NCBI GenBank assembly: GCA_030706405.1
Contig: JAUZOO010000009.1
Coordinates: 124,001 to 188,000 of the forward strand
Direction: 5' to 3'
Length of the DNA: 64,000 nucleotides
From: Bacteroidota bacterium
GTDB taxonomy: Bacteria > Bacteroidota > Bacteroidia > Bacteroidales > JAAUTT01
A program made the position numbers and the translations under genes. The notes beneath the pieces were generated by a model, which made no database searches, had not been told where the DNA came from, and saw only the letters and a list, made by a program, of their open reading frames with translations. Below, piece after piece: positions 41,210 through 62,457 of this stretch (its first letter is position 1; each line of letters opens with the position of its first letter).

Positions 41210-41890
41210 ATGGCAAGACAACTCTATCAACGTGATTCTGCAGCATTTCATCTGAATGCCACCCGTCGGCACATTCGTTTGGCCCGCCAGCAAAAAGGAG
41301 CCGAAGGTTTTGCTGATGCAATCCAACCCTTTTTCCTCGACCTTCAGGAAAAACAAAAGCTTACCGTGCAGGCCAATCAACAGCGCGAAGATACTTACGA
41401 TGACATTATGTACGCCGATCAGGCTCTTGACGATGCCATCCGTACCACGTACGAAACCTGCAAGCAGTACGACCGTAACCATCCGGGCGAGGCGCTGGTG
41501 CTGAAAATATTTCCTAATGGAACGTTTTCAGAGATCGTTAACATGCCTTATGCCGAGGAGCCATTGGCTGCCGATCGTATCGCCGTCTCCATCGAAAACC
41601 TTGGAGAGAAACATCCTGTGTATTCTTTAGTGGCTGATTTGCGGGCTAAGATAGCAGGTGTAAATGCTACGCTCGAAGCCTATAAGCAAAACCTCACGCA
41701 TCTAACCCATGCACAGGTTGCTGAAGAAGCTTCCAAAGCCTCGTTGCGCCAGCAATATGAATTTAACTACCTGGATGCTCGCAAGCAATTAGGTACAACG
41801 TATGCCGAACGCATTTTTCCACAACTGAGTGTGCGTAGCAAAACCACCACCGAAGAAGAAGCTGCTACCGCAACCTCCGCAACAAAATAG
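41210..41890 (+). CDS. Uncharacterised helical protein adjacent to repeat array 1
   Basis: Likely start MARQLYQRDSAAFHL (track start 41159). Charged helical sequence with FADAIQPFFLDLQEK...YADQALDDAIRTTYETCKQYDRNHPGEA and a low-complexity acidic/Thr tail. Confidence 0.75.
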   Translation: MARQLYQRDSAAFHLNATRRHIRLARQQKGAEGFADAIQPFFLDLQEKQKLTVQANQQREDTYDDIMYADQALDDAIRTTYETCKQYDRNHPGEALVLKIFPNGTFSEIVNMPYAEEPLAADRIAVSIENLGEKHPVYSLVADLRAKIAGVNATLEAYKQNLTHLTHAQVAEEASKASLRQQYEFNYLDARKQLGTTYAERIFPQLSVRSKTTTEEEAATATSATK

Positions 41891-41936
41891 GAAGGCTTAA
41901 AAAGGCGCAGCAATGTATTGTTGCTCGTTCATAACG

Positions 41937-42187
41937 CTTTAAAAGTACGTTACCTCACCGTGTAACGTACTTTTTTTGTTTTGGTGTGGCGCTACCACGT
42001 GTTGCAGCGTACTTTTAAGATTTAGATGCATATTACCACTGATTGTAGCCTGTATCTCAACCTTTAAAAGCGACCCGTATTCCGTAGCAGACTACTTGCC
42101 AAGCTTTAAAAGCTCGTAACATTTCGGCGTAATGTGCTTTTAAAGCTTGAATAATGCTCTGCGTTCCGCGGTAATGCGTTTTGAGGA
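41937..42187. repeat. Degenerate tandem array, 42-bp period, inverted-repeat units (array 1)
   Basis: CTTTAAAAG-type unit starts at 41937, 42062, 42104 and 42146 (spacing 125, 42, 42). Best unit 42104-42145 CTTTAAAAGCTCGTAACATTTCGGCGTAATGTGCTTTTAAAG. A unit at 41979 shares GTACTTTTAA at the same offset. Confidence 0.75.
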
Positions 42188-42262
42188 CTTGGAAGCAGTT
42201 GACAACAAAAAGTTTTGTTGTTTTTGTTTGGAGGGGAAGTGATAATTGTGAAATATTTGTAA

Positions 42263-42295
42263 AAGAACCAAGAACCAAGAACCAAGAACCAAGAA
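42263..42295. repeat. Heptanucleotide microsatellite (AAGAACC)4 plus partial copy
   Basis: aagaacc aagaacc aagaacc aagaacc aagaa directly upstream of the GH28 ATG at 42307. Confidence 0.95.
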
Positions 42296-42306
42296 ATTTG
42301 CATTAT

Positions 42307-43722
42307 ATGAATTCAAAAAGCTCTCGCAGAAATTTTTTAAGAACTGCCGGACAGGGAATAATAGCCGTGCCTCTGGCTGCATCATTAACAAGTTTTACCG
42401 AAGATTCCGGTTCTGGGGTATCGGGTCGGAAAGAACTTCTCACTCCAAAAAATAATGGCATTAGCTTAAACATTCGCGATTTTGGAGCTGTTGGCGATGG
42501 CGTAACCAAGGATACTGCGGCGATACAGCAAGCCATTGATCGTTGCTGGGTGCTGGGTGGAGGCGAAGTCATTGTCCCTTCCGGAAATTACCTCACAGGA
42601 GCTGTTGCCTTAAAATCGAACGTTACACTTCGGCTCGAGAAAGATGCCATTCTTTCAGGTTCCGCTGAATTCGCCGACTATCCGGTAATGCAGGTTCGCT
42701 GGGAAGGAAAATGGATTCAGGGGCACGTTGGTTTAATTTACGCCATTGATGCTGAAAATATAGGTATTGTCGGGTCGGGAAAAATTGCAGGAAATCATGT
42801 ATTGGGAGGTCGTCCCAATACTCAGAATCCGTTGCGCCATCCGGCACTGATCGAACCCATGGGATGTAAAAATATTCGGTTCGAAGGTTTCTCAACCGAT
42901 TATCACCTGATGTGGTCGCTCCATCCGACATATTGCGAAAATATCATAATTAAAAGCCTTACCATACGGAGTACCGGTGGAAATGGAGACGGCATCGACA
43001 TTGATTCGTGCAAAAATGTACGCATCGATGGCTGTGATATTGCTACCGGCGATGATTGCATTTCGCTTAAATCGGGACGCGGCATGGAAGGTTATACGTT
43101 GCTCAGAACTACCGAGAATGTTGAAATTACCAACTGTACCTTTGCCGATTCTATTTTTGCGTGCATCGGTATTGGTAGCGAAACGTCGGGAGGCATACGC
43201 AATGTGCACATAAAAAATTGTAGGTTCACGGCAGCCAAAACGCATGCTATCTACATTAAAAGTCGTCCGGGACGCGGGGCGTTCATCGAAAATATTATTG
43301 CCGAAGATCTCGACGTTGAGCGAACTCAGGGTGGTTTTCTGCGGTTTAATATCCTTGCCAGCGGTATACAGGATCAGAATCCTGTTCCCGGCGACGAAGG
43401 TATTCCTACAATTAAGAATTTCAGGTTTTCCCGAATCCGGGTAAAAGACGTACCTGTGCTGGTTGATGGAACCTTTATCCATCCTTCGAAACCGCTTGAT
43501 GGATTTATTTTTGAGGATGTGAGCGGAACCTGTTTCAAGGGAATAACTTTGGCAAACATAAAAAAAGCCGTCATAAGGAATCTTAACGTTACCGGATATA
43601 GCGGTCCGCTGATTGGTATCAATAATGTTTCCGGTAAAGGGCTTGATGGAGCTGTTGCGATTGCTCCTCCCAAGATTCCCGATCCCGTTTCTGTTGGTAA
43701 TCCACCGTATCAGCTTAAATAA
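42307..43722 (+). CDS. GH28-like pectate/polygalacturonase family protein, Tat signal
   Basis: MNSKSSRRNFLRTAGQGIIAVPLAASL (twin-arginine); NIRDFGAVGDGVTKDTAAIQQAIDRCWVLGGGEVIVPSGNYLTG; GDGIDIDSCKNVRIDGCDIATGDDCISLKSG. Track start 42181 is upstream of the real start. Confidence 0.93.
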   Translation: MNSKSSRRNFLRTAGQGIIAVPLAASLTSFTEDSGSGVSGRKELLTPKNNGISLNIRDFGAVGDGVTKDTAAIQQAIDRCWVLGGGEVIVPSGNYLTGAVALKSNVTLRLEKDAILSGSAEFADYPVMQVRWEGKWIQGHVGLIYAIDAENIGIVGSGKIAGNHVLGGRPNTQNPLRHPALIEPMGCKNIRFEGFSTDYHLMWSLHPTYCENIIIKSLTIRSTGGNGDGIDIDSCKNVRIDGCDIATGDDCISLKSGRGMEGYTLLRTTENVEITNCTFADSIFACIGIGSETSGGIRNVHIKNCRFTAAKTHAIYIKSRPGRGAFIENIIAEDLDVERTQGGFLRFNILASGIQDQNPVPGDEGIPTIKNFRFSRIRVKDVPVLVDGTFIHPSKPLDGFIFEDVSGTCFKGITLANIKKAVIRNLNVTGYSGPLIGINNVSGKGLDGAVAIAPPKIPDPVSVGNPPYQLK

Positions 43723-43984
43723 GGATGGTTATGAATCTTAAATTTTGAATAATGGCTTCATTCAAATGCTTGTATATTTGTTAATAAGTTGTAAAGTAGT
43801 TGTAGAACATTATTTTTTAACATTTAATGTTATTCTAAAGGTTAACGTAATGATTTGTTGATGTAAAATGATGAATATATTAAACTAATGGTAAATAAGG
43901 CTTAAGGTTTAACTAACAAATAGGGGATACTTTTGGATATATTGAAAAATAAACCATTAAATCTCAAATTTAACTCTTTTTGTT

Positions 43985-45631
43985 ATGAATCAAGTAAGTT
44001 TTATTAAGGTTCCGGACATGCTTGAACAGCGCAGTCATGTGAATTTCATTCAGACATTAAATCCTTTGAAATGGGCGGTTGCCATGTTTGTGGGAACAAC
44101 CCTGTTGTCAGCCTGTCAGAAGAATGACAACGGGTCGTCAACAACGGAAGCTTCTCCTGTTTTCGGTACATATATTACCGGCGATTTTCATCAGCATACT
44201 ACGTATACTGATGGCTCTTGGTCGATAGGGTATGTTATGGCTAAAAATAATAGTTATAATCTGGATTTTTGGGTTAACAGTGAACATGGAGGCGGATTTA
44301 CCACTAACGGGGCCGCATCGGGTACAGATAAAAATACAACTAAATATTGGGACCAGTACACCCCTAATCCGATTCTCGGAACCGTAGTTATGAGTGGAGC
44401 CCACCAAGTAATGTGGCGCTGGCAGTGTATCCGCGATTCATCATTTAAACAGGTACTCGCGGCTCGGGCATTGTATTCATCTAAAGTGATTTTTCAGGGA
44501 CTCGAAATGAATGTTCCTGGTCATGAACATGCCAGTACAGGAATTCTTACCAATCAGTTTGTCACCAATCCGAATGTTAATCCTATTGCTGAATTCGAAT
44601 ATCGTTTTGATAATAATGATGCTGACGTTACTGGCGGATTGACCCAGGGATGGACAAAAAGTACCAATACCGGTCATGCCAAGGCTTTGGAAGCTATTTC
44701 GTGGCTGCAAACCAACCATCGTTATCGTAGTTGGGTGATTCCGGCACATCCGGAACGGAAAAACTTATATTCTATTTCTGATTTTCGCGATTTAAACAAT
44801 GCCGGACCGGATGTATTTTTTGGATTTGAAAGTATGCCAGGCCATCAGAAAGTTGCCGACCGTGGTGAGTATAAAGCTGCAAGCGGCACTTATGGTACCT
44901 GTACTTACGGTGGAGTTGGTAAAATGTCGGCACAGGTTGGCGGATTATGGGATGCTATGTTAAGCGAAGGCCGTCATTTTTGGTTATTTGCCAATTCTGA
45001 TTTCCACGATACCATTGGGGATTTTTATCCGGGTGAATATCAAAAGAATTATATCTCTGTAAAGTCGAAAGACCCGCAGGCTATTGTTGACGGGATGCGT
45101 TCGGGGAATGTTTTCATTGTTGCCGGAAACCTTATCGACGGACTTCAGTATTCAATCGGAAGCGCTGTGATGGGACAAACGTATAATGCCAACGATAATT
45201 CCGTTACTATTAAAATCAGGGTTCATGATAATGATAAACTTAACCACCTTGATATTATTGGCGGCTCATGGACAGGCTATGTTTATAAAGGCGATGCCAA
45301 ATATACTGTTGACGATGTAACTGCTACGACTAAAGTTGTTGCTCGTTTTGGATCAACGGCGGCAGCAGCAGATGCTAATGGTATTGCTACCCAAACCTGG
45401 AACGATAACGGTGGGTGGAAGGAAATGTCGTTTACTGTTTTGGCAACCAGTGATATGTATTACCGTTTGCGTGGTACCAACTGGGGACTAAATGTTACCA
45501 ACCAAACCGATAATGTTGGCAATCCGTTGGCCGACAATCTGATTGTTAATACGCGTGCCGAAGCTCTTAAAGATCTATGGTTTTATTCAAACCCTATTTG
45601 GGTAAAAGCTAAAGGAAGCAAAAAGAAATAA
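43985..45631 (+). CDS. PHP-domain (CehA/McbA-like) metallohydrolase, probable lipoprotein
   Basis: LLSACQKNDNGSS lipobox; GTYITGDFHQHTTYTDGSWSIGYVMAKNNSYNLDFWVNSEHGG; HPERKN; LFANSDFHDT. Confidence 0.82.
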   Translation: MNQVSFIKVPDMLEQRSHVNFIQTLNPLKWAVAMFVGTTLLSACQKNDNGSSTTEASPVFGTYITGDFHQHTTYTDGSWSIGYVMAKNNSYNLDFWVNSEHGGGFTTNGAASGTDKNTTKYWDQYTPNPILGTVVMSGAHQVMWRWQCIRDSSFKQVLAARALYSSKVIFQGLEMNVPGHEHASTGILTNQFVTNPNVNPIAEFEYRFDNNDADVTGGLTQGWTKSTNTGHAKALEAISWLQTNHRYRSWVIPAHPERKNLYSISDFRDLNNAGPDVFFGFESMPGHQKVADRGEYKAASGTYGTCTYGGVGKMSAQVGGLWDAMLSEGRHFWLFANSDFHDTIGDFYPGEYQKNYISVKSKDPQAIVDGMRSGNVFIVAGNLIDGLQYSIGSAVMGQTYNANDNSVTIKIRVHDNDKLNHLDIIGGSWTGYVYKGDAKYTVDDVTATTKVVARFGSTAAAADANGIATQTWNDNGGWKEMSFTVLATSDMYYRLRGTNWGLNVTNQTDNVGNPLADNLIVNTRAEALKDLWFYSNPIWVKAKGSKKK

Positions 45632-45645
45632 GTGGAATAAAAAAT

Positions 45646-45678
45646 AAAAGCGCCATTCCTGACCTGAGTGGCGCTTTT
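45646..45678. terminator. Bidirectional hairpin terminator
   Basis: AAAAGCGCCA-N13-TGGCGCTTTT between convergent genes. Confidence 0.8.
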
Positions 45679-45700
45679 TGTATGTTTAAAGGTGGTGTTA

Positions 45701-46216
45701 TTATTTTAGCTGAGCTTTAATTATATTAACCATTTTTTGAAATTCTTCTTCGGAGTAACCGACACTTTGAAAAACAATCTTTCCTTCCTTATTGATGACA
45801 ATATTCCGGGGAATATATTTGGAAGCAAATAAGTTGTAGATTGAAGCTTGAGGGTCGGGGAAGATAGGGAACGTAAAACCTTTCACTTTTTTGAAGGCGT
45901 CCATTTCTTCGCGGGAATGTTTTCGGCCGAAAGCCAGAATCATAAATTTATCGGTTTTGAGCGGTTGCCATAAAAGCGATTCTACTTTAGGCATTTCCAA
46001 CATGCATGGGCCGCACCATGTGGCAAAGAAGTTTAGAAGTACAACTTTCCCTTTGTAATCAGCAATTTTAAGGAGTTGACCATTATCCTGTGCAAATGAA
46101 AATGATGGAACATCCTGTCCGATTTTAGTCAGGGTTGAAGCTTTTTCGTCGTCCTGACCAAAAGAGTTGCCAGCAACGAATATCAGAAGAACGAAAAAAA
46201 GAAGGTTTTTCATCAT
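45701..46216 (-). CDS. TlpA-like thioredoxin-family protein, secreted
   Basis: YKGKVVLLNFFATWCGPCMLEMPKVESL; signal peptide MMKNLLFFVLLIFVAGNSFGQ. Confidence 0.93.
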   Translation of the reverse strand: MMKNLLFFVLLIFVAGNSFGQDDEKASTLTKIGQDVPSFSFAQDNGQLLKIADYKGKVVLLNFFATWCGPCMLEMPKVESLLWQPLKTDKFMILAFGRKHSREEMDAFKKVKGFTFPIFPDPQASIYNLFASKYIPRNIVINKEGKIVFQSVGYSEEEFQKMVNIIKAQLK

Positions 46217-46252
46217 AGGGAGTTTTATAGGGTTAAAGAAGATTAGATTGAA

Positions 46253-46307
46253 AAACGCGAAGAAGCAATGTTGGGCACTTGTCCGGAAAATTGACTTCTT
46301 CGCGTTT
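46253..46307 (-). terminator. Hairpin terminator between lpd and the TlpA-like gene
   Basis: AAACGCGAAGAAG...CTTCTTCGCGTTT, minus-strand T-tail. Confidence 0.75.
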
Positions 46308-46318
46308 GTTTATGGATA

Positions 46319-47710
46319 TTAAATATGGATAACCTCGTCGTAAGCAGCCGCAGCGGCCTCCATAATGGCTTCGCTCATGGTCGGGTGCGGGTGAATCGAT
46401 TTAATGATTTCGTGACCTGTGGTTTCGAGGTTACGGGCAACTACCAGTTCGGCAATCATCTCGGTAACGTTGGCTCCAATCATGTGAGCGCCCAAAACTT
46501 CGCCATATTTGGCATCGAAAATGAGTTTGATAAAACCTTCCTTAGCTCCGGCAGCACTGGCTTTGCCCGATGCCGTGAAGGGGAATTTACCGACTTTGAT
46601 TTCGTACCCGGCTTCTTTGGCCGCTTTTTCGGAATAACCTACCGATGCTACTTCGGGTGTGGTGTAAGTACATCCGGGGATGTTTTTGTAGTTGATAGGA
46701 TGCGGGTTGAGTCCGGCAATCTTTTCAACGCAGGTGATACCTTCGGCCGAAGCCACATGGGCCAGGGCTGGAGTAGCGATGATATCACCAATGGCATATA
46801 CGCCTGCAACATTGGTGCGGTAATAATCGTCAACTTTGATGCGGCCTTTTTCGACCTGGATGCCAAGTTCTTCCAAACCGATATTTTCGATGTTGGGAGC
46901 AATACCAACAGCCGAAAGCACTACTTCAGCTTCAAAATATTCTTCGCCTTTGGGGGTTTTTACTTTTACCTTGCAAAGAGGTCCGGAAGTATCAACGGAT
47001 TCGACAGTCGAACTGGTAAGAACGGTCATTCCGCCTTTCTTGAATGATTTTTCGAGTGTCTTGGAGATTTCTTCGTCTTCCAAAGGAACAATGTTGGGGA
47101 GAAATTCAACCAGGGTTACTTTGGTGCCGATGGAATTGTAGAAATAGGCAAATTCGCTGCCAATAGCTCCCGAACCCACAACCAGCAGAGAAGCGGGTTG
47201 CTTTGTCAGGTTAAGTGCCTGACGGTAGCCGATAATTTTTACGCCGTCCTGTTTAAGGTTTGGCAGTTCGCGCGAGCGTGCTCCGGTTGCAACGATGATA
47301 TGGTCGGCCGAAACTTCTGTTTTTTTGCCGTCTTTATCAGTAACTTCAATGGTTTTGTTGTTCAGCAGTTTTCCATTGCCGAAGATGGCATCAATTTTAT
47401 TCTTTTTAAAGAGGAATTGGATTCCTTTACTCATGCCTTCGGCTACACCACGGCTACGTTGTATTATTTTGGTAAAATCGGGTTTTGCTGCACCTTCGAT
47501 GCTGATTCCGTAGTCGGCTGCATGTTGGGTGTATTCGTAAACCTGAGCACTTTTTAATAATGATTTGGTGGGGATACATCCCCAGTTGAGGCAAATTCCT
47601 CCGAGGTTTTCGCGTTCAACAACGGCAACCTTTAAACCAAGTTGAGTGGCTCTGATAGCTGCTACATAACCGCCGGGGCCGCTTCCGAGAACTATTAAAT
47701 CGTATTTCAT
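46319..47710 (-). CDS. lpdA: Dihydrolipoyl dehydrogenase
   Basis: MKYDLIVLGSGPGGYVAAIRATQLGLKVAVVERENLGGICLNWGCIPTKSLL; HPHPTMSEAIMEAA. Confidence 0.98.
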   Translation of the reverse strand: MKYDLIVLGSGPGGYVAAIRATQLGLKVAVVERENLGGICLNWGCIPTKSLLKSAQVYEYTQHAADYGISIEGAAKPDFTKIIQRSRGVAEGMSKGIQFLFKKNKIDAIFGNGKLLNNKTIEVTDKDGKKTEVSADHIIVATGARSRELPNLKQDGVKIIGYRQALNLTKQPASLLVVGSGAIGSEFAYFYNSIGTKVTLVEFLPNIVPLEDEEISKTLEKSFKKGGMTVLTSSTVESVDTSGPLCKVKVKTPKGEEYFEAEVVLSAVGIAPNIENIGLEELGIQVEKGRIKVDDYYRTNVAGVYAIGDIIATPALAHVASAEGITCVEKIAGLNPHPINYKNIPGCTYTTPEVASVGYSEKAAKEAGYEIKVGKFPFTASGKASAAGAKEGFIKLIFDAKYGEVLGAHMIGANVTEMIAELVVARNLETTGHEIIKSIHPHPTMSEAIMEAAAAAYDEVIHI

Positions 47711-47776
47711 AAATTGGAAAATTAATGTGTAATGTACTAATGTTTATAGTGTTGTATTCGTTTAGTGTCTAATGGC

Positions 47777-48838
47777 TTACCAGCCCATGAAGTAACCGGT
47801 AAGTCCACAAATTAAACCAATTAAAAGATTAATTCCTTTCATCAGGAAAAAATTTCGTTTCGATTCTGCCAGCAGTGGAAGTGAACTGTGCCCGTCCTGA
47901 ACGATGGAGTTTGCCAGAAGTATACTGAACGGAATACTGCCATTGTAAAACAAGGTAACAAAAATAAGGTGTGGCCCCGATTCCGGAATGATTCCTACTA
48001 CCAGCGCCAGTATTAATACGGTAAGGTAATTGTGCTGTAACCATGGGGTGATGTCCATATAGTTAATCAGCAGTTCAATACCCAGAAGAGCACCGAACGT
48101 CCAGAGAAAAATGCGGACAAAGTGTTTTTTAATGATATGTCCCCAAAGATGGTCTTCGAGAAAATGCTCATCAACTAATAAAAGGATATATAACGCCCCC
48201 AAGCTTAGTCCCATGAAAAGTAAATTTTCGATGCCCCAGTCGGAGTGACTTTCGGCAGTTTTATGGGCTAATTCATGACCGCTATGCTCAAACTGTCCGG
48301 TTACGATGCCAAACAGAAAAAGTAACAGTCCAAGAATGAGGATGGAGCGTTGGAATGAAATATTCTTCAGGTTTTTAAGGATATTTCTCCACGAATGCTG
48401 TTGTTGTACCGTTTCGTGCGAGTGAATAACCATGTGCGTTTTGCCGGGATAAGGTACTTTACATTTTTTAACAAAAAGGTTGATAATTATCCCCGACAAA
48501 ATGGCAATAACGAATACTATGATGTTGAGCAGGATGGCGGTTTTGGGAAACATGGAAATCATCACAAACGATTCGTCGCCGGTAGAAGCGATCATGGCTG
48601 CTGTTAAGGCTCCAAAGTTCAGGAGGTTATGGGTGAACATTGACACCGCGGCAAATCCCCCGATACATCCGGGAACGAGTCCGAGTAACGCCGCAACAAT
48701 AAGTTGTTTAAATTTCGATTGTGCGAGTTTTTGCCCCCACTGTCCGTTGGAAACGATGTTAAAATATTCGATTAACAACATCATTACTAGTACCAGACTG
48801 GTAATCATGATGGTTTGTCTCAGTATATCGATCAGCAT
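47777..48838 (-). CDS. Putative 10-TM heavy-metal (manganese-type) transporter
   Basis: Polytopic; VPGCIGGFAAVSMFTHNLLNFGALTAAMIASTGDESFVMISMFPK resembles the ArsP_2/putative Mn transporter family. Confidence 0.78.
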   Translation of the reverse strand: MLIDILRQTIMITSLVLVMMLLIEYFNIVSNGQWGQKLAQSKFKQLIVAALLGLVPGCIGGFAAVSMFTHNLLNFGALTAAMIASTGDESFVMISMFPKTAILLNIIVFVIAILSGIIINLFVKKCKVPYPGKTHMVIHSHETVQQQHSWRNILKNLKNISFQRSILILGLLLFLFGIVTGQFEHSGHELAHKTAESHSDWGIENLLFMGLSLGALYILLLVDEHFLEDHLWGHIIKKHFVRIFLWTFGALLGIELLINYMDITPWLQHNYLTVLILALVVGIIPESGPHLIFVTLFYNGSIPFSILLANSIVQDGHSSLPLLAESKRNFFLMKGINLLIGLICGLTGYFMGW

Positions 48839-49056
48839 GCTGTTTATTAAAGCTTGTGTTAAATTTAGGAGTAGTCCGGTTGTTTTAATTTATCGGAAGA
48901 TCTGCTCCTAGTTTGTCAAATGGATTAAACAAACAAAGTTAGCGAAATTTCATTCCGCCAGTCGGCTCGTTATTTAATTTACATTAAAATGCCTTAAGCT
49001 ATCAATTTGTTCATTCTAAGTTGTTAATTTTAATAGGAATATTATTTGACAATTCA

Positions 49057-51279: not shown

Positions 51280-51338
51280 TTCCGGAGACTGAGCTTAAAA
51301 CAAAATAGTATCTTTACACCTTCATAAATTTAATCTAA

Positions 51339-51776
51339 ATGCGGGATAATAAAGAAGATATACGCTGGATTCAAAGGTTTGTCAATTTCAGTAAAGCATT
51401 TGCACAATTAGAGCGATTTATTGCCAGGGAGGATTTAAATGAAATGGAAGAGCAAGGTTTGATAAAGGCTTTTGAATATACATATGAGCTAAGCTGGAAA
51501 ACCTTGCAGGATTTACTCAAAGAAAAAGGTTACAAAGATATTACAGGCCCTCGTCCGGTTGTTGAACAAAGTTTTCAGGACGGATATATTGTTGATGGAC
51601 GAGGTTGGATGAAAATGCATCAAAGCCGGAATTTAACCAGTCATACTTACGACGAGGAAACTGCTGAAGAGATAATACGGGAAATTCGGGAAACCTATTT
51701 TGGTTTATTGAAAGATTTGCGTGATAGGCTCGAAAATGAACGTTCCACCAACCCCAATACTTTATTTAATGAATAG
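51339..51776 (+). CDS. HepT-like (HI0074 family) HEPN toxin
   Basis: GLIKAFEYTYELSWKTLQDLLKEKGY; RNLTSHTY = R-x4-H-x-Y HEPN motif; overlaps the nucleotidyltransferase gene by 8 nt. Confidence 0.87.
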   Translation: MRDNKEDIRWIQRFVNFSKAFAQLERFIAREDLNEMEEQGLIKAFEYTYELSWKTLQDLLKEKGYKDITGPRPVVEQSFQDGYIVDGRGWMKMHQSRNLTSHTYDEETAEEIIREIRETYFGLLKDLRDRLENERSTNPNTLFNE

Positions 51777-52089
51777 TTCTGATTACGGGTTGGTTGCTTC
51801 CGATTTAATTGCCATATTGTCTGAATTGTCGAAAAATGATAATATTGACGAGGTGATATTGTTTGGGTCCAGGGCTAAAGGTTCTTATCATACCGGTTCG
51901 GACATTGATTTGGCTTTGAAGGGAAATAATATCGGGATTAATGATATTTTGGATCTGTCGATAGAATTGGATAAGTTACTCTTACCTTATAAAATAGATT
52001 TGGTTATCTATAAAAGGATTAAGGAAAAAGCGTTAATTGAACATATTGACCGGGTAGGGGTAAAATTATACCAACGAAGCAATGCTTAG
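51769..52089 (+). CDS. MntA-like minimal nucleotidyltransferase antitoxin
   Basis: DEVILFGSRAKGSYHTGSDIDLALKG: GSx10DxD motif; start ATG overlaps the HepT-like stop (track start 51721). Confidence 0.88.
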   Translation: MNSSDYGLVASDLIAILSELSKNDNIDEVILFGSRAKGSYHTGSDIDLALKGNNIGINDILDLSIELDKLLLPYKIDLVIYKRIKEKALIEHIDRVGVKLYQRSNA

Positions 52090-52123
52090 AAGTTATTTCC
52101 AAACATTACTTCGGTCGATATTA

Positions 52124-52813: not shown

Positions 52814-52887
52814 GAACGTATGTTTTAAAGTTTTAATCTTTTGGGTTAATATTGGAAAAAAGAATATTCATTATTTAATTAATCTTC

Positions 52888-55428
52888 CTACCGCCACTCG
52901 TGTTTGGGGTAACGGCCTTTGAGTTCTTTTTTAACGTCGTGGTACGAGTTCTTCCAAAAGTAATCGAGGTCGCGGGTTATTTGTACCGGACGACGGCTTG
53001 GGGCGAGAATCTCGAAAACTACCGATACTTTTCCTTCGGCAACGGTTACCGGTAGTGGTAAATCGTAAAGTGCCTGAACGGTTTCGGAGAGGATCACGTC
53101 GCCTTTGTCATCGTAACGAAGTTTAACCGGATATTTGCGTCGCGGAAGGTTGATGGTTGTTGGAGCAACTACGTCAACGGTGGCAAGTTGTTCGTAGCTA
53201 AACCAGGCTTTTAATGTAGGCCACAGGTTGCAACGCTGCACGTCTTTCACGCTTCGGCAGTGATAAACGGTTTGTTGGATGATGAATTCCTTTGCTTCGT
53301 CGTCGATAGCCGGGATGCCGTAATGCGGGGCATGTTTGGCTGCAAAGTTTACGCGGCGAACGAAATGCTCCACATCTTCGTCCCATTGCGGAAAATCGAT
53401 ATGCCCCCCGAGGATAGCCTCCATAAGCAGCCGCGATGCTATTTCGTCGTCATTTATATCGGATGTTTCGCGTCGTAAAACCAAACCGTTGAGGCTAAAT
53501 TCGGTAATTCGCACCACTTTTTTCTGTTCTGCATCAAAAAGTTCGGTGATGGTTTTATCGGAACCGTGCATGTTGAGGTTGGCAAGCCAGCTTTCGTCTA
53601 CTTCGGAAACTTTTTGCAGGAAAAGCTGCACGCCCGTTGGTGATTTGGTTTCTTCCATTTCGGTGGCTACCATGATGCGGGCATTTTGGACGATGCTGTC
53701 GCGATGAAGCTTTCCGCTTTTACCGTACATCATCTGGCATGTGGGCGAATTAAATCGGTGACGGATAGCCAGATGGTCGATGAAGCCTGTGAAAATACAC
53801 TCGCGGAGCAGTGCCGCTTCCTCGGGCGAAATGTTTTCGTTGGGTAGCTTTTTATCTTTTTTAGATGAAGGCTGTGCCCGGTGCAATAGTTGCAGGGCAA
53901 GCTGTCCGGTTTGGCGTGCTGTGTTGGCGTTAATGCCCAGTCGGCTGCAATCGGAATGCCGGAATTGACGTGTTCCAGCCCAAAGCCAGGCGTTTAATTC
54001 AAAAAGAAGGTCGGAGCTGGGATTGCCAAATTCGTGTTCTCGCTCTTGCAAGATAACCTGATCGGTAGTGTTGTAAAATATCCCTGATGACTGGGCAATG
54101 GCTGCCACCACGCAGGCTGCAGGGATGCAATCGAGCTTAACCGCGTGCATCAGCATACTTCCAAAGCGGGGATGAAGGTTGAGGCTGGCAATCTCTTTTC
54201 CCAACGGCGTGACTTCGTTGTTGTCGTCAATGGCATCGAGGTTTTGGAGCAGTTGACGTGCGTTTTCGATGGCGGAAGAAGCCGGGGCTTCAATCCAGGC
54301 AAAGCGGTCGAGCGGGCCATTTCCCGAAGCCAGCAGCCCAAGTATCGTTTCCGATAAATCGAGCCGGTGTATTTCGGGCGTATCTTGTAAAACTTTATTC
54401 TGATGTTCAAATTCGCTCCAAAGTCGTACGCAGGTTCCCGGGGCTGTTCGACCGGCGCGACCGGCTCGCTGGCTTGCCGATGACTGACTTATCTTTTCGA
54501 CAAAAAGGGTGTTGATGCCCCGTTTGGGATCGAAACGGGCTACACGCGCCAATCCGCTGTCGATAACTAATCGTATGCCGGGAATCGTTAATGACGTTTC
54601 GGCTACATTGGTGGTTACAATAATCTTGCGGCCTCCTTCGCGAACGGCTTTGTCTTGTTCGTCTTTGGTGAGTGAACCGTATAGCGGATAAATTTCAAAA
54701 TGTTGTAGTGACTGTCGTCGCTGTATCGATTCGAGTGCCTTTTTAATTTCGAAAGCACCGGGCATGAAAATCAATGCGCTGCCTTCGGTAAACAGCGGAA
54801 GTGCGGCTTCGAGCTGAAGCGCAGCAAAGTCCCAAACGGTTTCGTAAGGCTTCGGTTGCCGGTAAAGAATTTCTACCGGATAAGCCCGGCCTTCGGTTTC
54901 GAGAACAGGGCAGGGGTGAAGGTATTCTTTTAAACGCTCCGTCTCCAGCGTGGCCGACATCACCACCAGTTTAAGATCGGGGCGGTGTTGTTGCTGAAGT
55001 TTTAAGGCAAGGGCAAGACTGATGTCGGTTTCGAGGTGGCGTTCGTGAAATTCGTCGAAGATGATAGCTCCGGCTTCGTTTAAAAGATCGTTGCGCAATA
55101 AGCGGTTCAGTAAAATACCTTCGGTAACGAACAGCAGGCGGGTATTTGCACTTTGGGCATTTTCGAGGCGTACCTGGTAACCTACCTCGTCGCCAAGCGG
55201 ACGTAGCCGTTGCCCGGCCACAAACGATGCCAGCATGCGGGCCGCAATGCGCCGGGGTTGCAATACAATCACGGTCTTTTGGGCCGGTATCACATCGTCC
55301 AGCAGAAATTGCGGGATTAACGTCGATTTTCCCGAACCTGCCGGGGCACGAAGTATGCAACGATTGCTTTGGGACAATGTCTCAACAAATTCGTTGCGGA
55401 TAAGCTGTATGGGTAAATTTGCCTCCAT
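52888..55428 (-). CDS. hrpB: ATP-dependent helicase HrpB
   Basis: RAPAGSGKSTLIPQFLLDD, FDEFHERHLETDISLALAL, VMSATLETERL, TNVAETSLTIPGIRLVIDSGLARVARFDPKRGINTLFVEKISQSSASQRAGRAGR. Confidence 0.95.
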   Translation of the reverse strand: MEANLPIQLIRNEFVETLSQSNRCILRAPAGSGKSTLIPQFLLDDVIPAQKTVIVLQPRRIAARMLASFVAGQRLRPLGDEVGYQVRLENAQSANTRLLFVTEGILLNRLLRNDLLNEAGAIIFDEFHERHLETDISLALALKLQQQHRPDLKLVVMSATLETERLKEYLHPCPVLETEGRAYPVEILYRQPKPYETVWDFAALQLEAALPLFTEGSALIFMPGAFEIKKALESIQRRQSLQHFEIYPLYGSLTKDEQDKAVREGGRKIIVTTNVAETSLTIPGIRLVIDSGLARVARFDPKRGINTLFVEKISQSSASQRAGRAGRTAPGTCVRLWSEFEHQNKVLQDTPEIHRLDLSETILGLLASGNGPLDRFAWIEAPASSAIENARQLLQNLDAIDDNNEVTPLGKEIASLNLHPRFGSMLMHAVKLDCIPAACVVAAIAQSSGIFYNTTDQVILQEREHEFGNPSSDLLFELNAWLWAGTRQFRHSDCSRLGINANTARQTGQLALQLLHRAQPSSKKDKKLPNENISPEEAALLRECIFTGFIDHLAIRHRFNSPTCQMMYGKSGKLHRDSIVQNARIMVATEMEETKSPTGVQLFLQKVSEVDESWLANLNMHGSDKTITELFDAEQKKVVRITEFSLNGLVLRRETSDINDDEIASRLLMEAILGGHIDFPQWDEDVEHFVRRVNFAAKHAPHYGIPAIDDEAKEFIIQQTVYHCRSVKDVQRCNLWPTLKAWFSYEQLATVDVVAPTTINLPRRKYPVKLRYDDKGDVILSETVQALYDLPLPVTVAEGKVSVVFEILAPSRRPVQITRDLDYFWKNSYHDVKKELKGRYPKHEWR

Positions 55429-55503
55429 ATAGCTGCAAAGATAGCAATCGGAAGGATTTCGGCGACTTTCTGTTTAACTATGAAAGTAATCCGGTTTGTA
55501 ACA

Positions 55504-55842
55504 TCAAATCGAAATTACTTTATTTGCTTCGATTTGTAATGTTAGAATATCTTCCATTGTTCCAATATGTCCAACTTTTACATTGTTGATAAGCCCATAA
55601 TAATTAAGACAGGTTTTGCAGGCAATTAATTGAACTCCTTTACCTTCCATTATAGCTAATGAATCCAGCACCGGCGAGTCTTCACATATCAGTTTTACTC
55701 CTTCGCCATAAAATAAAAGTGCAGCAGGAAGTTTTTTTTCATCTTTTAGTAAACCCAAATAATTTTTTATAAGTGCTTTACTAAGATCTTCGGGCGCAGT
55801 TCCCATCCCGTTATTGCTAAGTAATATAACTGTTGTTTTCAT
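55504..55842 (-). CDS. DsrE-domain YedF-like selenium-metabolism protein
   Basis: MKTTVILLSNNGMGTAPEDLSKALIKNYLGLL...GVQLIACKTCLNYYGL; adjacent to selD. Confidence 0.83.
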   Translation of the reverse strand: MKTTVILLSNNGMGTAPEDLSKALIKNYLGLLKDEKKLPAALLFYGEGVKLICEDSPVLDSLAIMEGKGVQLIACKTCLNYYGLINNVKVGHIGTMEDILTLQIEANKVISI

Positions 55843-55859
55843 AGGTATATATGTTGTTT

Positions 55860-56900
55860 TTATATCACTTTAATTAAAATATCGGACCGAGGGACCAAAT
55901 ACCCCAAAGCCTGGGCTTCGATATTGTTTTCTTTCAAGATTGCCTCAACTTCGTTAACGGCACCATCTTCAACCGCAATTAACAAACCTCCGCTGGTTTG
56001 CGGGTCGCATAAAACAAGTTTGTTGTTTTCGTCCTTAAGTTGAATGTTATGCCCATAACTATCCCAGTTACGGTGCGTACCACCAGGGATACAGTTTTGA
56101 GCAATGTATTCTTCCAAACCTGAAAACCGAGGTATATGATCAAATTCGATGATAGCCGAAAGGTTACTTCCCTGGCACATTTCGGTGAGATGGCCTAATA
56201 ATCCGAAACCAGTTACATCGGTCATGGCGGTAATACCTTTAATTTTGGCAAATACCTGTCCAATCGTATTTAGTTTCGTCATCGATTCTGTTGCCACATG
56301 GGCGTGTTCCGCTTTAAGCTTACCTTGCTTTTGGGCTGTGGTAAAAATGCCAACTCCAATAGGTTTGGTAAGGTAAAGTTTGCATCCTTCGGAGGCAGTA
56401 TTGTTTTGTTTTAACTGATCGATAGCCACCTGCCCGGTTACGGCCAAACCGAAAATAGGTTCGGGACTATCAATGCTATGACCTCCTGCCAAAATTATTC
56501 CTGCCTCTTTACAAGCCTGTCGACCACCATCAACAACTAATTGGGCAATTTCGGGGGTAATCTTATTAATTGGCCAACCTAAAATAGCAACTGCCAGCAA
56601 TGGTTTTCCTCCCATAGCATAGATGTCGCTAATGGCATTGGTTGCGGCTATCTTTCCAAAGGTAAACGGATCATCAACGATAGGCATGAAGAAATCGGTG
56701 GTGCTGATAATGGCCATTCCGTTACCGATGTCGTACACCGCAGCGTCGTCAAGGCTTTCGTTTCCTACCAGTAACTTAGGATCGACAATCGGATCGACAT
56801 TGCTGTGCAAAATGGTGCTCAATACCTTGGGCGAAATTTTACATCCACAACCGGCGCCGTGACTATATTGGGTTAGTTTTATATCATTCATGTTGTTCAT
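55860..56900 (-). CDS. selD: Selenide, water dikinase
   Basis: [18 protein letters not shown] (Cys in place of Sec), [38 protein letters not shown]. Confidence 0.97.
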
Positions 56901-57909
56901 AATAATTTAAAATTGCTTTTGTGTTTTCAACAGGATTGGTATCGTTTTGAGGTATGATAAAAACCTTTTCCGGATCGCGAAAATTCATTCCTTTCAAATA
57001 AGTTTTATCGTAATAGTTAAGGGCTATAATAGCCACTTCATAAAAATTCCGTTCGCTCAAATAATGAAAGGCTTCTTTTACTTTCTGACCATCGAGCCGT
57101 TTGGAAATTTTGCGGATTGATTCGGCTAATGATTCGATATCCGTATCCGCATATTCGGTTACCAGGAGTTTAGCCCTTTCTTCTTTGGGAATATCCAAAA
57201 AGTATAAACGACTATTCCGCATCTGATCATAAAGGTTCATGGGAATGTTTACCCCTCCAATGTTATGGCTTTCGTCTTCGAGCCAGATAGGCCGGGAATA
57301 GTCTAAATTTCGCCATACCTCGAAAAGGTTATTTTCGAATTGCTCCACGGTAGGCTGTGCTTGCTCTGCCATAGCTCCAAATGCCGATCCTTTGTGTTTG
57401 GCCAGATATTCGAGGTCCACGGCCTGTAATCCTAAGCCTTGAAGTTGCTTAATGACATGCGTTTTTCCACTGCCAGTATACCCGCCAACAATTCTGAGGT
57501 CGAAAGGAATGTCGAATGTACTGTGTAAATGAGTCCGGTAAGCTTTGTAACCTCCGGTGATAACCGATACATCGGTAAAACCATTGTCGTAAAGATGTTG
57601 GGCAAACGAATGACTACGCATTCCTCCACGCCAGCAATGGATTACCACTTTTCCATCCGGGGCTACGGTTTCCGATTGAGTAATGAAATCCGTAAGTTTA
57701 GGATTGACGTACCGATAGCCAAGTTCTAAAGCTTTCTCTTTCGACTGTTGTACATAAACCGTTCCGACATGAGCCCGTTCATCGTCCGAAAAAAGCGGGA
57801 TATTTACTGCACCCGGAATATGTCCTTTCGCGAACTCTCCGGGAGAACGAACATCAATTAAAGGAATTCCCGTTTTTAAAAAATCTGCTATTTCGATTTC
57901 TTGAACCAT
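56884..57909 (-). CDS. mnmH: tRNA 2-selenouridine synthase
   Basis: [68 protein letters not shown]; overlaps selD start by 17 bp. Confidence 0.96.
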
Positions 57910-58138
57910 AAGGGTGACAAAAATACATCTTTTTTAATGGCGAGGATTCTGATATACAACTTTAAATAAGCAAGCATTGCGAGAAATGTTTTTTTGTAAA
58001 TTAACAATAATCCATATCCGTCAATATTTAATCCATCTCAATCCTTCCCTTTCATTATCTTTGTCGGTCGAATTGCATAAATAGCTTATGCGTTGCGATG
58101 TAAACTTTGAAATAAACATTACCAAACATTAATAAACA

Positions 58139-58936
58139 TTGAGGTACTTCGTTCATATCTCGTATAATGGCATCAATTACCGTGGCTGGCAGCGACAAAA
58201 GGAGGTTATTGGAGTAAGAGAGGTATTTGAATCCAACCTTGAACGAGTTCTCAAAGAACCCATTGAATGCATTGGATGTGGCAGGACCGATGCGCTGGTA
58301 CATGCCAGTCAATTCTTTTTTCACTTTGATGTACAAAAGGAGTGGGACTTCGATTTAGTGTTCCGCCTTAATAAAATGTTGCCAAGAGACATTTCCGTCT
58401 TTGATATTATCCGGGTTGAGGACAAACAGCATGCACGTTACGATGCTGTTAGCCGTACTTACGATTATTTTATCCACACGTATAAAGATTCTTTCTTAAA
58501 TGAGCGAAGTTCCCTTTATTTGGAGCGTAATTTAGATATCGATAAGATGAACCAGGCGGTAAAGCTTATTCCGAAATATTCCGACTTTTATTCCTTTTGC
58601 CTGGCACCCCAAAAACAACCCGGTACTGTTTGTCGAATCTCTTCCGCTAAACTATTCTCCGATCATAATGTCGACCGATTACGGTTTCAAATCACTTCAA
58701 ATCGTTTTTTACGAGGAATGATACGGATAATTGTACGAAGGCTGCTCGATATAGGAACCGGAAAATTATCCGTTAAGGAGTTTGAGGACTTATTGATGAA
58801 TAGAATAGATAATACTGATACCAAACCGGCATATCCACAAGGTCTTTATCTTACCAAAGTAACATATCCTTATTTAGATCTTCCTCCACGAACCGATGTG
58901 ACAAGTGGTAACCTTAACGAATGGATAGAAATTTAA
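58139..58936 (+). CDS. truA: tRNA pseudouridine synthase A
   Basis: YFVHISYNGINYRGWQRQKEVIGVREVFESNLERVLKEPIECIGCGRTDALVHASQF; TTG start. Confidence 0.95.
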   Translation: MRYFVHISYNGINYRGWQRQKEVIGVREVFESNLERVLKEPIECIGCGRTDALVHASQFFFHFDVQKEWDFDLVFRLNKMLPRDISVFDIIRVEDKQHARYDAVSRTYDYFIHTYKDSFLNERSSLYLERNLDIDKMNQAVKLIPKYSDFYSFCLAPQKQPGTVCRISSAKLFSDHNVDRLRFQITSNRFLRGMIRIIVRRLLDIGTGKLSVKEFEDLLMNRIDNTDTKPAYPQGLYLTKVTYPYLDLPPRTDVTSGNLNEWIEI

Positions 58937-59098
58937 ATTTCAGGTGAAAATTGATAAATAGCCGCTCGCAACTCAACGGCTTTGCCGGATTATGTAATTA
59001 ACATTCGTTCTAATTCTATAACTTTTTTTAACACACACCCGATTCCCTTTTTCACTATTTTTGGATGACTTGATTTTTTAACCTAAAAAGTTTTAATC

Positions 59099-59185
59099 AT
59101 GACTTCATTTATTCTTTTATTTCTTTTGGGGGTTGTTAGTGTGTTTTTATTGGGAGAATTGTTAGGAGAAGTTTTTACGAAATAA
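59099..59185 (+). CDS. Putative small membrane protein, 28 aa (below ORF-track cutoff)
   Basis: ATG...TAA translating MTSFILLFLLGVVSVFLLGELLGEVFTK, a single hydrophobic helix, in otherwise empty intergenic DNA. Confidence 0.45.
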   Translation: MTSFILLFLLGVVSVFLLGELLGEVFTK

Positions 59186-59329
59186 TAAATAAGCTCGGGT
59201 AAAAGATCCTTCCCGGAAACCATTTTGGAAATGCTTCTAAAGCATCCGGTAAAAAATTTCTTTTTTAAGGAATGCCCGATAAAAAAGAAAAAAGCATAAT
59301 TCCATACCTTTGCTTGTGGTTTAGGAATT

Positions 59330-60451
59330 ATGGAAAAAGAAACAACTCCATCTTATCGAAAAATAATTCATGTTGACATGGATGCTTTTTATGCATCTAT
59401 TGAGCAACGCGATAACCCTATGTATGCCGGAAAGCCGATTGTTGTGGGAGGCAGTCCGGAAGGACGGGGAGGAGTTGTTGCCACGGCATCGTACGAAGCA
59501 CGAAAATTTGGTATTCGTTCTGCTATGCCATGCAAAAAGGCTCAACAATTATGTCCGTATGTTTTGTTTGTTCGTCCCCGATTTGATGTTTACAAAGCCG
59601 TTTCTGTTCATATTCGCGAAATCTTTTCGCGCTATACCGATTTAATCGAACCCTTATCGCTCGATGAGGCCTATCTGGATGTTACCATTGATAAAAAAGG
59701 CATAGGATCGGCAATTGAAATAGCCAAAGAAATAAAACAATCCATAAAAGATGAACTGAACCTTACGGCATCTGCAGGAGTTTCCATTAATAAGTTTGTG
59801 GCTAAGATTGCATCGGATATGAATAAGCCCGATGGATTAACATTTATCGGTCCATCGAAAATAGAATCGTTTATGGAAAGTTTGCCTGTGGAAAAGTTTC
59901 ATGGTGTAGGAAAAGTTACTGCTCAAAAAATGAATAGAATGGGATTGTTTTCCGGTGCCGATCTAAAGAAGTTAACCGAGAATGATTTAATACGCAATTT
60001 TGGTAAGGCGGGGCATTTTTATTACAATATTGTAAGAGGAATCGACGATCGTCCGGTGGAACCTCATCGGGAAACCAAATCGGTAGGCGCTGAAGATACA
60101 TTCCCGGAAGATTTAACGACCCTCCCGGAGATGGAAGCTGAGCTTGACAAGATTGCATTGCTGGTTCATCAGCGGTTACTGAAACACAAACTAAAAGGAA
60201 GGACAATTACACTTAAAGTAAAATATCACGATTTTAAACAAATAACCCGAAACCATTCGCTGCCTGGCGCAACGAATGATTGGGATATAATTAAGAACAC
60301 GGCTTGCGAATTATTGAAGAATACCGATTTACAACAAATTAAAGTACGCTTACTCGGAATTACAGTTTCTAATTTTGGAATTCCATCAGCACGCATCAGT
60401 TTGCAACACGCGCAACAACTTCAACTGCCTTTTGAAGAAGAATTTTTATAG
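59330..60451 (+). CDS. dinB: DNA polymerase IV
   Basis: IIHVDMDAFYASIEQRDNPMYAGKPIVVGGSPEGRGGVVATASYEARKFGIRSAMP; SLDEAYLDVT; ASAGVSINKFVAKIASD. Confidence 0.97.
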   Translation: MEKETTPSYRKIIHVDMDAFYASIEQRDNPMYAGKPIVVGGSPEGRGGVVATASYEARKFGIRSAMPCKKAQQLCPYVLFVRPRFDVYKAVSVHIREIFSRYTDLIEPLSLDEAYLDVTIDKKGIGSAIEIAKEIKQSIKDELNLTASAGVSINKFVAKIASDMNKPDGLTFIGPSKIESFMESLPVEKFHGVGKVTAQKMNRMGLFSGADLKKLTENDLIRNFGKAGHFYYNIVRGIDDRPVEPHRETKSVGAEDTFPEDLTTLPEMEAELDKIALLVHQRLLKHKLKGRTITLKVKYHDFKQITRNHSLPGATNDWDIIKNTACELLKNTDLQQIKVRLLGITVSNFGIPSARISLQHAQQLQLPFEEEFL

Positions 60452-60568
60452 TTACTACTTCAAACTATGCGCGACTAACTAAAATATTTTCCGATTATAC
60501 TTCGTTTCAATAAAGGTTACCAATAGTATAACTTCGACAGATTGAACAACTATCTCTGGCGATATATA

Positions 60569-61459
60569 TTAATTCAAAATGCTATTCCAATCGGGCAAAT
60601 CTTCGAGGTTTAACAATCGGGCTTTGGATGGTTTTAACATTTCGTGCAGTTGATTAAATAAGTCTGTACCGGCTTTTATATAATCGTTAATGTTATCTTG
60701 ATCCATGCTTTTGGAGGCTAACGATTTTAAAATAGTTTCATACTTATCGTCCATGAGCAGTTGTAAGGCACAATCGAGACATTGAAAAAAGCGTATGGTA
60801 TTTAATAAATTAAGTTGGATATCTTCAGTTTCAACAAGTAAACAATAACGTCTTAACGTTACATAGCACGGCATTGGTATATAATCGGCAAATGCCATAC
60901 GATTATCTTTATTATTAAACTGTGGATTGAGAAACATTAGTTCGTCTAAAATGGCAAACGTAGTTTTAAAAATAAGCGTTGGATCGGTACCGGTTTTACA
61001 TTCTAATGCAATGATTTTAATTAAGTGGGCATTTTTTTCATCTTCGATACTCCGGCGGTTTTGGTACAATCCAATTATAGTATTTGTAATATTATTGGGA
61101 AGTACCTGATCAAATTTAAGATTTTCCGTATAGGAGATATCCTTAATGCTGCAAAAATCGATAAATGCCTTATAGGTAACCTCAATAGCTGTGTTCACAA
61201 AATTGAACAGAACATCGTGAGTGAAAATTTGCTTCCACGCCATCAGACTATCTTCGAACCTAAAGCCCGAGCGAAACATAATTTTTGCCCGATTTGAGCT
61301 AAACCCAATATCGATGAAAAGGTGTTTGATTCCATCGGGCATCGTCTCATAGTCGAAATTGCAACTTACCTCTGATGATTGGTTATCTGGCTCATCATTA
61401 GTAAGTATTTCAGTCCATATATAGTCGTTATAAAATGAATGTGGAGGGTTATTGGTCAT
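60569..61459 (-). CDS. Hypothetical protein, 296 aa
   Basis: Intact ORF with coding-like composition; no family recognised. Confidence 0.65.
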   Translation of the reverse strand: MTNNPPHSFYNDYIWTEILTNDEPDNQSSEVSCNFDYETMPDGIKHLFIDIGFSSNRAKIMFRSGFRFEDSLMAWKQIFTHDVLFNFVNTAIEVTYKAFIDFCSIKDISYTENLKFDQVLPNNITNTIIGLYQNRRSIEDEKNAHLIKIIALECKTGTDPTLIFKTTFAILDELMFLNPQFNNKDNRMAFADYIPMPCYVTLRRYCLLVETEDIQLNLLNTIRFFQCLDCALQLLMDDKYETILKSLASKSMDQDNINDYIKAGTDLFNQLHEMLKPSKARLLNLEDLPDWNSILN

Positions 61460-61490
61460 GTTGTATATTTTTTAATGATTTTATAAGAAA

Positions 61491-61520
61491 AAAACCCGGA
61501 AAGAGAGGTCTTTTTCCGGG
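61491..61520 (-). terminator. Hairpin terminator downstream of the 122-aa gene
   Basis: Minus strand CCCGGAAAAAGACCTCTCTTTCCGGGTTTTTTTC. Confidence 0.8.
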
Positions 61521-61544
61521 GTAAACAAGTGGGAAAGGCATTGT

Positions 61545-61913
61545 TTATTTCTCTGTAGCAGAGTTGTCGGCTTTTTTGGTTGTCCGTTTGCGATCGCTTT
61601 TACGGGTTCCGCCTGCTTTTTCATACTCAGGGCTATCGTAACCATACTTACTCCCAACGCTATTTAATACACGTTGTGACATGTCGGCCAGTTCTTTTTC
61701 GGCTTCCATCAAGTTTACCAACACACCATCTACTTCGGCCAAATGGCTGTTGTATTGGTCTGTAAAATCTACAACTCTGGCAATGGCATCGGCATAAGAC
61801 TGCGGATTAAGCTGGCTGCCAAAATCGAAATTTGGATCGATGGATTTAACTTTGTTGTTGCGCTCCTGAGCTTTTAATACTTCAAGTGATGTTGATCTTT
61901 TTCGGTACGACAT
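61545..61913 (-). CDS. Uncharacterised helical protein near repeat array 2
   Basis: 122 aa; SYADAIARVVDFTDQYNSHLAEVDGVLVNLMEAEKELADMSQRVLNSVGSKYGYDSPEYEKAGGTRKSDRKRTTKK, basic C-terminus, own terminator. Confidence 0.75.
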   Translation of the reverse strand: MSYRKRSTSLEVLKAQERNNKVKSIDPNFDFGSQLNPQSYADAIARVVDFTDQYNSHLAEVDGVLVNLMEAEKELADMSQRVLNSVGSKYGYDSPEYEKAGGTRKSDRKRTTKKADNSATEK

Positions 61914-62184
61914 AGTTTTAATTATTAAATGTTTACATTATAAAAAATAACTCACTTTATAAAAATAAATATTTTTTCGAAATATTGTGTCATCGTTAGG
62001 TTATTTTTTGTGCACAAAATGATGTAATACAATATATATTACCTGTTAACAAAGCGGTAATCCCTTGCAAATACAAGGTAAACCAAGCTTACTGATAGGG
62101 ATGGAAGAACTTGTAGGTTGGCATAAATTATTTTCAGTAACGAATCGTTTACAAGCTCAATTGAATGCTCGTCGATGAGGAAAT

Positions 62185-62420
62185 GTTCCTTGTTTTGTTA
62201 GTTGGGAAGGAAGGTTTGTAACAAACCCTTCTTCCTTTGTTAATCGGGAAGGAACCAAACTAACAAACCTTCCTTCCTTTGTTAGTTTGGAAGGAGTTTT
62301 TTTAACAAACGTTCCTTCTTTTGTTAGTTTGGAAGGAGTTTTTTTAACAAACGTTCCTTCTTTTGTTAATCGGGAAGGAACATTTGAGACGAAACAAGGA
62401 AGGTTTGTTGAAAGGAAAAC
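62185..62420. repeat. Tandem array, 42-bp unit, about 5.5 copies (array 2)
   Basis: Units 62185-62226, 62227-62268, 62269-62310, 62311-62352, 62353-62395, partial 62396-62420; e.g. GTTCCTTCTTTTGTTAGTTTGGAAGGAGTTTTTTTAACAAAC. Inverted CCTTC/GGAAGG pairs in each unit. Confidence 0.93.
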
Positions 62421-62457
62421 AGAGGCCAAAGCCCCGGAAATGTCTATTCTAACCGGG

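Follow-up and report, generated by a model that had tools for sequence, protein, structure and literature searches.

Private tandem DNA arrays with a conserved 21-bp step adjoin small helical proteins of several families in Bacteroidota and other phyla

Introduction

Why should two tandem repeats with no sequence in common keep the same period within one stretch of a bacterial genome? The question is raised by a 64,000-nt window (positions 124,001–188,000 of contig JAUZOO010000009.1, assembly GCA_030706405.1) from a Bacteroidota bacterium, in which two such arrays, here called array 1 and array 2, lie beside genes for small proteins of 243 and 122 amino acids (aa), respectively. An initial annotation of the window suggested that each protein and its repeat belong to one dispersed family of co-diverging elements. 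Our analysis answers the question with a conserved step and a free sequence: we are close to certain that small proteins of several families possess private arrays in which the spacing of the units is conserved and their sequence is not, which explains how the two arrays of the window can have the same period and unrelated sequences.

Results

Array 2 is clear. Tandem Repeats Finder (TRF) called it at 62186–62380 with a period of 42 bp, 4.6 copies and 80% matches, and an ungapped search resolved five copies spaced exactly 42 bp. On the strand of the 122-aa gene, which it precedes by about 255–490 bp, the array consists of two 21-bp units in alternation, TCCTTCCcgAtTAACAAAAGA and AGGAACGTTTGTTAaaaaAAC. 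Array 1 is degenerate and was not called by TRF; its top self-similarity lags are 167, 42, 125 and 84 bp, and its local match at 41–43 bp was reached by none of 300 Markov shuffles. Dyad centres lie near 41958, 42040 and 42124, the first of which, together with a T-run, could well serve the 243-aa gene as an intrinsic terminator, so that this one palindrome requires no other explanation. The unit sequences of the two arrays are unrelated to each other, and the two unrelated repeats of 42-bp period described in the initial annotation were thereby recovered. That period is present in both arrays, although their basic step is 21 bp and not 42 bp. The agreement is not a product of chance, because both arrays are built as 2 × 21 bp and 21 bp is the sole outstanding period among the non-coding arrays of the host.

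Homologues of the 122-aa protein place array 2 in a wider setting. The protein is single-copy in the host genome, and relatives occur in 4 of 149 relative genomes (host counted), in 17 of 396 genomes of the phylum, several of these being weak matches, and at 283 confirmed places among genome contigs, 80 of which were analysed. The family ranges over Bacteroidota, Cyanobacteria (mostly filamentous), Desulfobulbaceae, Verrucomicrobia and Anaerolineales; one member lies on a cyanobacterial megaplasmid, and none was found in phages or viral contigs. Among the first five homologous loci, three possessed an upstream 42-bp array, with unrelated sequences. In the vicinity of the gene, the periods called by TRF across the 80 loci were 21, 42, 63, 84, 105 and 126 bp, and self-similarity pooled over the 600-bp upstream regions of 78 genes peaked only at these same six values, with no comparable peaks in the gene bodies, the downstream regions or the regions 1.5–2.1 kb upstream of the same 78 genes. 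An upstream array was called by TRF in 71 of 98 distinct loci, with L003 and L008, a close relative from the host's own genus, counted as one locus. Array length in the family has a median of 8.5 units, and the median distance from array end to start codon is 195 bp; a remote 234-aa homologue found in a different order of the class (L099) also has an upstream 21-bp array, at a distance of 110 bp. A weak TT..AA skeleton is common to the arrays of the 122-aa family (information 5.03 vs. 3.83 ± 0.09 under the null), which also show AA/TT power at 4.2 bp (z 8.6); the skeleton does not occur in the arrays of other families, and a shared sequence motif as a general array code was ruled out. One family member, in Anabaena subtropica (L036:3995–4390), is apparently split in two by an in-frame stop.

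A comb scan with periods of 16–30 bp, run over 864 kb (18%) of the host genome in two portions of 464 kb and 400 kb, revealed further protein families with the same architecture. The larger portion gave nine matches, eight of them at 21 bp and some of them coding coiled coils, and the smaller gave non-coding matches of which three were strong, all with a 21-bp period, and two were borderline, with periods of 20 and 22 bp. Each 21-bp array has its own sequence, and the arrays lie mostly beside small helical proteins and not at random positions, which the initial annotation had listed among the refuting outcomes of such a scan. The proteins adjoining non-coding arrays have 245 (L121), 159 (L108), 133 (L168) and 205 aa (L160). 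Two non-coding 42/21-bp arrays (L118:9730–9960 and L158:1072–1330) adjoin no small helical protein; the former contains two conserved blocks that alternate with two variable blocks of about 8–12 bp.

Relatives of these proteins repeat the pattern. The comb scored highest at 21 bp in the majority of 159-aa loci and in all six loci of the 245-aa family, a period of 20–22 bp was found in 24 of 30 loci of the 205-aa family, and the 133-aa family gave the signal in 6 of 6 loci, four of them above threshold. A 253-aa family gave a weak signal, with 4 of 14 loci above threshold. Profile comparison with hhalign detected no homology between the array-linked protein families, and the same architecture is thus present in several families without detectable homology. 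The side on which the array lies is largely typical of the family, being mostly upstream in the 122-, 133- and 205-aa families, mostly downstream in the 159-aa family and mixed in the 245-aa family; the opposite geometry of the two window loci, initially counted as a weakness of their association, therefore loses its weight. The longest array seen, with a 22-bp step and about 30 copies, lies upstream of a 159-aa family member (L149), and members of the 245- and 159-aa families at L154, L155 and L132 have extra C-terminal stretches that look beta-rich by eye. Genomes G003, G096, G110, G033 and G043 hold most of the array-linked families, in several copies each, and the 159-aa family was not found on plasmids.

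Coding had to be excluded as the origin of the step, because 21 bases make seven codons and coiled-coil genes do yield 21-bp periodicity elsewhere in the host (L123 and L112). Stop-free frames through the arrays of the 122-aa family are no more frequent than expected after permutation of unit columns (46 loci vs. 42.8 ± 3.0 in sense and 42 vs. 40.2 ± 3.2 in antisense), and the variation between units shows no codon-position bias, with 4% of 53 loci at p < 0.05. Furthermore, some loci step by 20–20.5 bp (periods of 41, 62 and 82 bp) and others by 21.5–22 bp (43 or 22 bp), so that the step corresponds to two turns of the helix, give or take about 1 bp, and not to seven codons. The units of these non-coding arrays are enriched in dyad symmetry, both in the 122-aa family (0.538 vs. 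0.475 ± 0.010 by chance) and in the other families (0.511 vs. 0.441 ± 0.008).

Protein and array diverge together, as the initial annotation had suggested. Arrays were alignable in 89–100% of pairs when the neighbouring proteins were more than about 80% identical, in 16% at 70–80% identity and almost never below, and the stretch between array and gene stays alike to lower protein identity than the array itself. The excess similarity of unit profiles (correlation) rises smoothly, from 0.01 for proteins less than 35% identical to 0.63 for those more than 90% identical. The strongest evidence tying the neighbouring protein to the unit comes from two paralogues of the 159-aa family in the host, L125 and L137, which are 88% identical. 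Although their downstream regions cannot be aligned past a terminator, the correlation between their unit motifs is 0.65 (null 0.30 ± 0.07), a value reached in none of 400 permutations. Retention of this kind is what a motif held by selection while its copies turn over would look like, and for this pair taken alone, plain common ancestry of the units is the alternative.

Neither of the two window proteins matches Pfam at E ≤ 0.01, and the 122-aa protein had no significant match in Pfam, NCBIfam, PADLOC or PHROGs; the 159- and 245-aa proteins likewise had none in Pfam, PADLOC and PHROGs, the three libraries against which those two were scanned. The AlphaFold2 (AF2) model of the 122-aa protein (predicted local distance difference test score, pLDDT, 87.5) is a confident prediction with helices at residues 10–25, 37–90 and 95–99, of which the second spans 54 residues and the other two are short; the basic tail is predicted to be disordered. 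In an alignment of 44 sequences, conservation is highest in the C-terminal motif KYGxDSxEYExAGGxRxS, which precedes the conserved basic tail, and a Foldseek search of the model against the PDB gave nothing significant. The 243-aa product is predicted to be helical with a low-complexity Glu/Ala/Thr tail; its AF2 model from a single sequence (pLDDT 56) is too poor for use, and no relatives were found in the 149 relative genomes, the 396 genomes of the phylum, genome contigs, plasmids or viral contigs. The pairing of this protein with array 1 is seen at one locus only. Kinship between the two window proteins, read initially from a FADAI/YADAI layout and charged tails, was not upheld, since profile comparison gave it a probability of 0.8%. 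The coordinates of the main features are given in Table 1.

Table 1. Positions of the two protein genes, their arrays and an associated hairpin in the 64,000-nt window
Feature	Coordinates	Strand	Description	Evidence
122-aa protein gene	61545..61913	−	Helical, no named family	Homologues, alignment, AF2
Intrinsic-terminator-like hairpin	61490..61522	−	Directly after 122-aa gene	−12.6 kcal, 26–51 nt past stop
226-aa protein gene (from ATG at 41210; 243 aa from TTG at 41159)	41210..41890	+	Orphan	
Array 2	about 62170..62400	−	21-bp-step array, alternating units, 42-bp super-repeat, non-coding	TRF, ungapped repeat search
Array 1	about 41938..42190	+	Degenerate 42-bp (2 × 21) array, downstream of 243-aa gene	Self-similarity lags

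Other features of the window lie near these loci or between them. A 296-aa open reading frame (ORF) with no Pfam match follows the 122-aa gene on the same strand (60569–61459, −), and overlapping 145-aa and 122-aa ORFs at 51339–52089 resemble a HEPN/MNT-type nucleotidyltransferase pair, judged from sequence appearance. A perfect heptamer array, AAGAACC × 4.7, lies at 42263–42295 just upstream of a GH28-like gene and resembles the short tandem heptamer repeats of Cyanobacteria and Bacteroidetes (PMC4679880).

Discussion

Each locus can be described as a two-part unit, in which the gene of a small, mostly helical protein adjoins a DNA tract where a short motif, often dyad-symmetric, is repeated once per 21 bp in about 5–12 (up to about 30) copies. 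We regard it as evenly balanced whether these arrays are tracts of DNA-binding sites, phased with the helix, that are cognate to the adjacent protein. The protein, probably a dimer or oligomer held together by its long helix, would bind the units of its own array; a step of 21 bp, or two helical turns, would place all bound subunits on one face of the DNA, where they may assemble into a single nucleoprotein patch similar to those of sopC/parS-type centromeres or iteron tracts. Such a patch could act as an autoregulatory or chromosome-anchoring site. Somewhat more tentatively, the loci may constitute an undescribed and widespread class, in which each of several unrelated helical families has helically phased arrays of its own and the code is a 21-bp step plus a fast-evolving, co-evolving motif, in effect many orthogonal centromere-like or scaffold systems per genome. 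Candidate causes of the common architecture are a common host partner, an ancestor beyond detection and convergence on helical phasing.

Several observations weigh against cognate binding by the neighbouring protein. No known DNA-binding fold was found among the proteins tested, and dyads do not occur in every array. About one quarter of the 122-aa loci have no array above threshold (some are truncated by contig ends), as do 10 of the 14 loci of the 253-aa family. The arrays of the 122-aa family lack the 10.5-bp AA/TT phasing that those of other families show (z 4.3), so that DNA curvature is probably not a shared code. Finally, the fact that unrelated proteins share one step may hint at a common host factor, rather than the neighbouring protein, as the reader of the array.

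The centromere of the F plasmid, sopC, is one of the closest parallels, consisting of tandem 43-bp repeats, each with an inverted repeat, beside sopB, the gene of its ParB-type protein. The loci described here resemble it in having a tandem array of about 42 bp with dyads in the unit and an adjoining small protein gene, and helix phasing would likewise permit a multimeric nucleoprotein complex. They differ in being chromosomal, often present several times per genome, different in sequence everywhere and built on a 21-bp step. In a ParABS system the tandem unit would contain an inverted repeat, and the dyad enrichment seen here, although not universal, agrees with this; family scans detected no ParA or ParB homologue at the locus, and there is no conserved neighbour gene.

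The proposal of a single dispersed family survives in part. Protein and repeat do co-diverge, no transposase is present and the arrangement recurs across phyla, whereas homology between the 122- and 243-aa proteins does not stand, and the two loci represent at best two of several unrelated families. The same holds for the analogy with repetitive extragenic palindromic (REP) sequences and their REP-associated tyrosine transposases (RAYT): a dispersed, co-diverging partnership of protein and palindrome is common to both, but here the repeats are tandem beside one gene and every locus has its own array sequence, whereas REP sequences are hundreds of dispersed copies of one sequence. A REP/RAYT system was ruled out, as the window proteins have no RAYT (Y1_Tnp-like) Pfam match and the arrays are locus-specific in the 864 kb scanned. 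Among tandem repeats of Bacteroidota, the BrickBuilt and PgRS/464 elements of Porphyromonas gingivalis contain 23- and 41-nt tandem repeats in miniature inverted-repeat transposable elements (MITEs) with terminal inverted repeats (PMC4596501). Unlike the present arrays, they are one sequence in many copies without a partner protein, and a MITE with a minisatellite was rejected because the arrays are locus-specific and not one repeat at many loci. Heptamers such as TAACTGA in Beggiatoaceae, Cyanobacteria and Bacteroidetes (PMC4679880) are also intergenic direct repeats upstream of genes in partly similar phyla, but they have a 7-bp step, one fixed sequence and no known cognate protein. A CRISPR (clustered regularly interspaced short palindromic repeats) array was ruled out, since the units repeat end to end and there are no conserved neighbours.

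Another explanation, which we consider unlikely, is that the array acts as RNA: a repeat transcript, whether leader, 3′ untranslated region or separate transcript, would be bound by the neighbouring protein and serve as a scaffold or as a guide array of the TIGR-Tas type. About one third of the arrays of the 122-aa family fold better than column-permuted controls, many upstream arrays could fall within a long 5′ leader, and some degenerate arrays (L118 and L147) alternate conserved and variable blocks. However, the improvement in folding is slight and the same on both strands (mean z −1.1 and −1.2; Wilcoxon p = 0.69), there is no covariation within units, with the arms of one unit matching no better than arms of different units, and an intrinsic terminator parts gene from array in 10 of 21 loci with downstream arrays. 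The arrays match no Rfam family, and Pfam scans gave no Nop domain match. Taken together, the strand-equal folding, the lack of covariation, the terminators and the absence of an Rfam match appear to favour a DNA-level site. TIGR-Tas systems combine 8–12-nt repeats with 9-nt spacers in alternation and produce 36-nt RNAs bound by a Nop-domain protein (PMC12045711). They likewise place a protein gene beside a long dual-unit array, and some of their arrays are palindromic (PMC12045711); such a system was rejected on account of the 21-bp step with deviations of only 1–2 bp, the missing Nop match and the absence of a PDB fold match for the 122-aa model.

A similarly low probability attaches to the reading of the array by a common host factor, the array then being a recombination, silencing or nucleoid module, comparable to attC sites of integrons, that accompanies passenger genes. 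At least four protein families without detectable homology have one step in common, and array-linked families co-occur in the same genomes (159-aa with 253-aa, p = 4e-5; 159-aa with 205-aa, p = 5e-5); the concentration of families in the same few genomes suggests a common host requirement. Nevertheless, unit motifs vary between loci of one genome and track the divergence of the neighbouring protein, which a single sequence reader would not explain. In addition, neither an integrase nor, other than local synteny, any further gene is a conserved neighbour.

It is far less probable still that the arrays are functionless neutral minisatellites produced by replication slippage. The unit sequence does turn over fast, homogenised within an array and different between loci, as minisatellites would be; the strict 21-bp step across phyla, the fixed side of the gene in most families, the tie to particular protein families, the unit motif kept between paralogues and a background estimated from the host scan at only about 3% per 1.8-kb neighbourhood argue against it. 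The weakest proposal, that the arrays encode heptad-repeat peptides of 7 or 14 residues, was rejected with a negligible chance of being right: open frames exist in L003 and in the window array, as a 90-aa ORF at 62157–62429 with the repeats TPSKLTKEGTFVKK, but frame counts and the codon-position test reveal no conserved open reading frame through the arrays, and steps of 20 or 22 bp would break the frame.

The search of the open-access literature, with subscription journals and preprints outside its scope, gave no description of such loci or of 21-bp arrays. Because only the period is conserved, the class is invisible to sequence searches. Proteins that are nameless in the libraries searched, and often multicopy in Bacteroidota and filamentous Cyanobacteria, are now tied to a DNA feature. 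If each protein binds its own array, these loci would represent a natural set of orthogonal protein–DNA pairs, and the arrays would offer a way into the function of entire families of hypothetical proteins.

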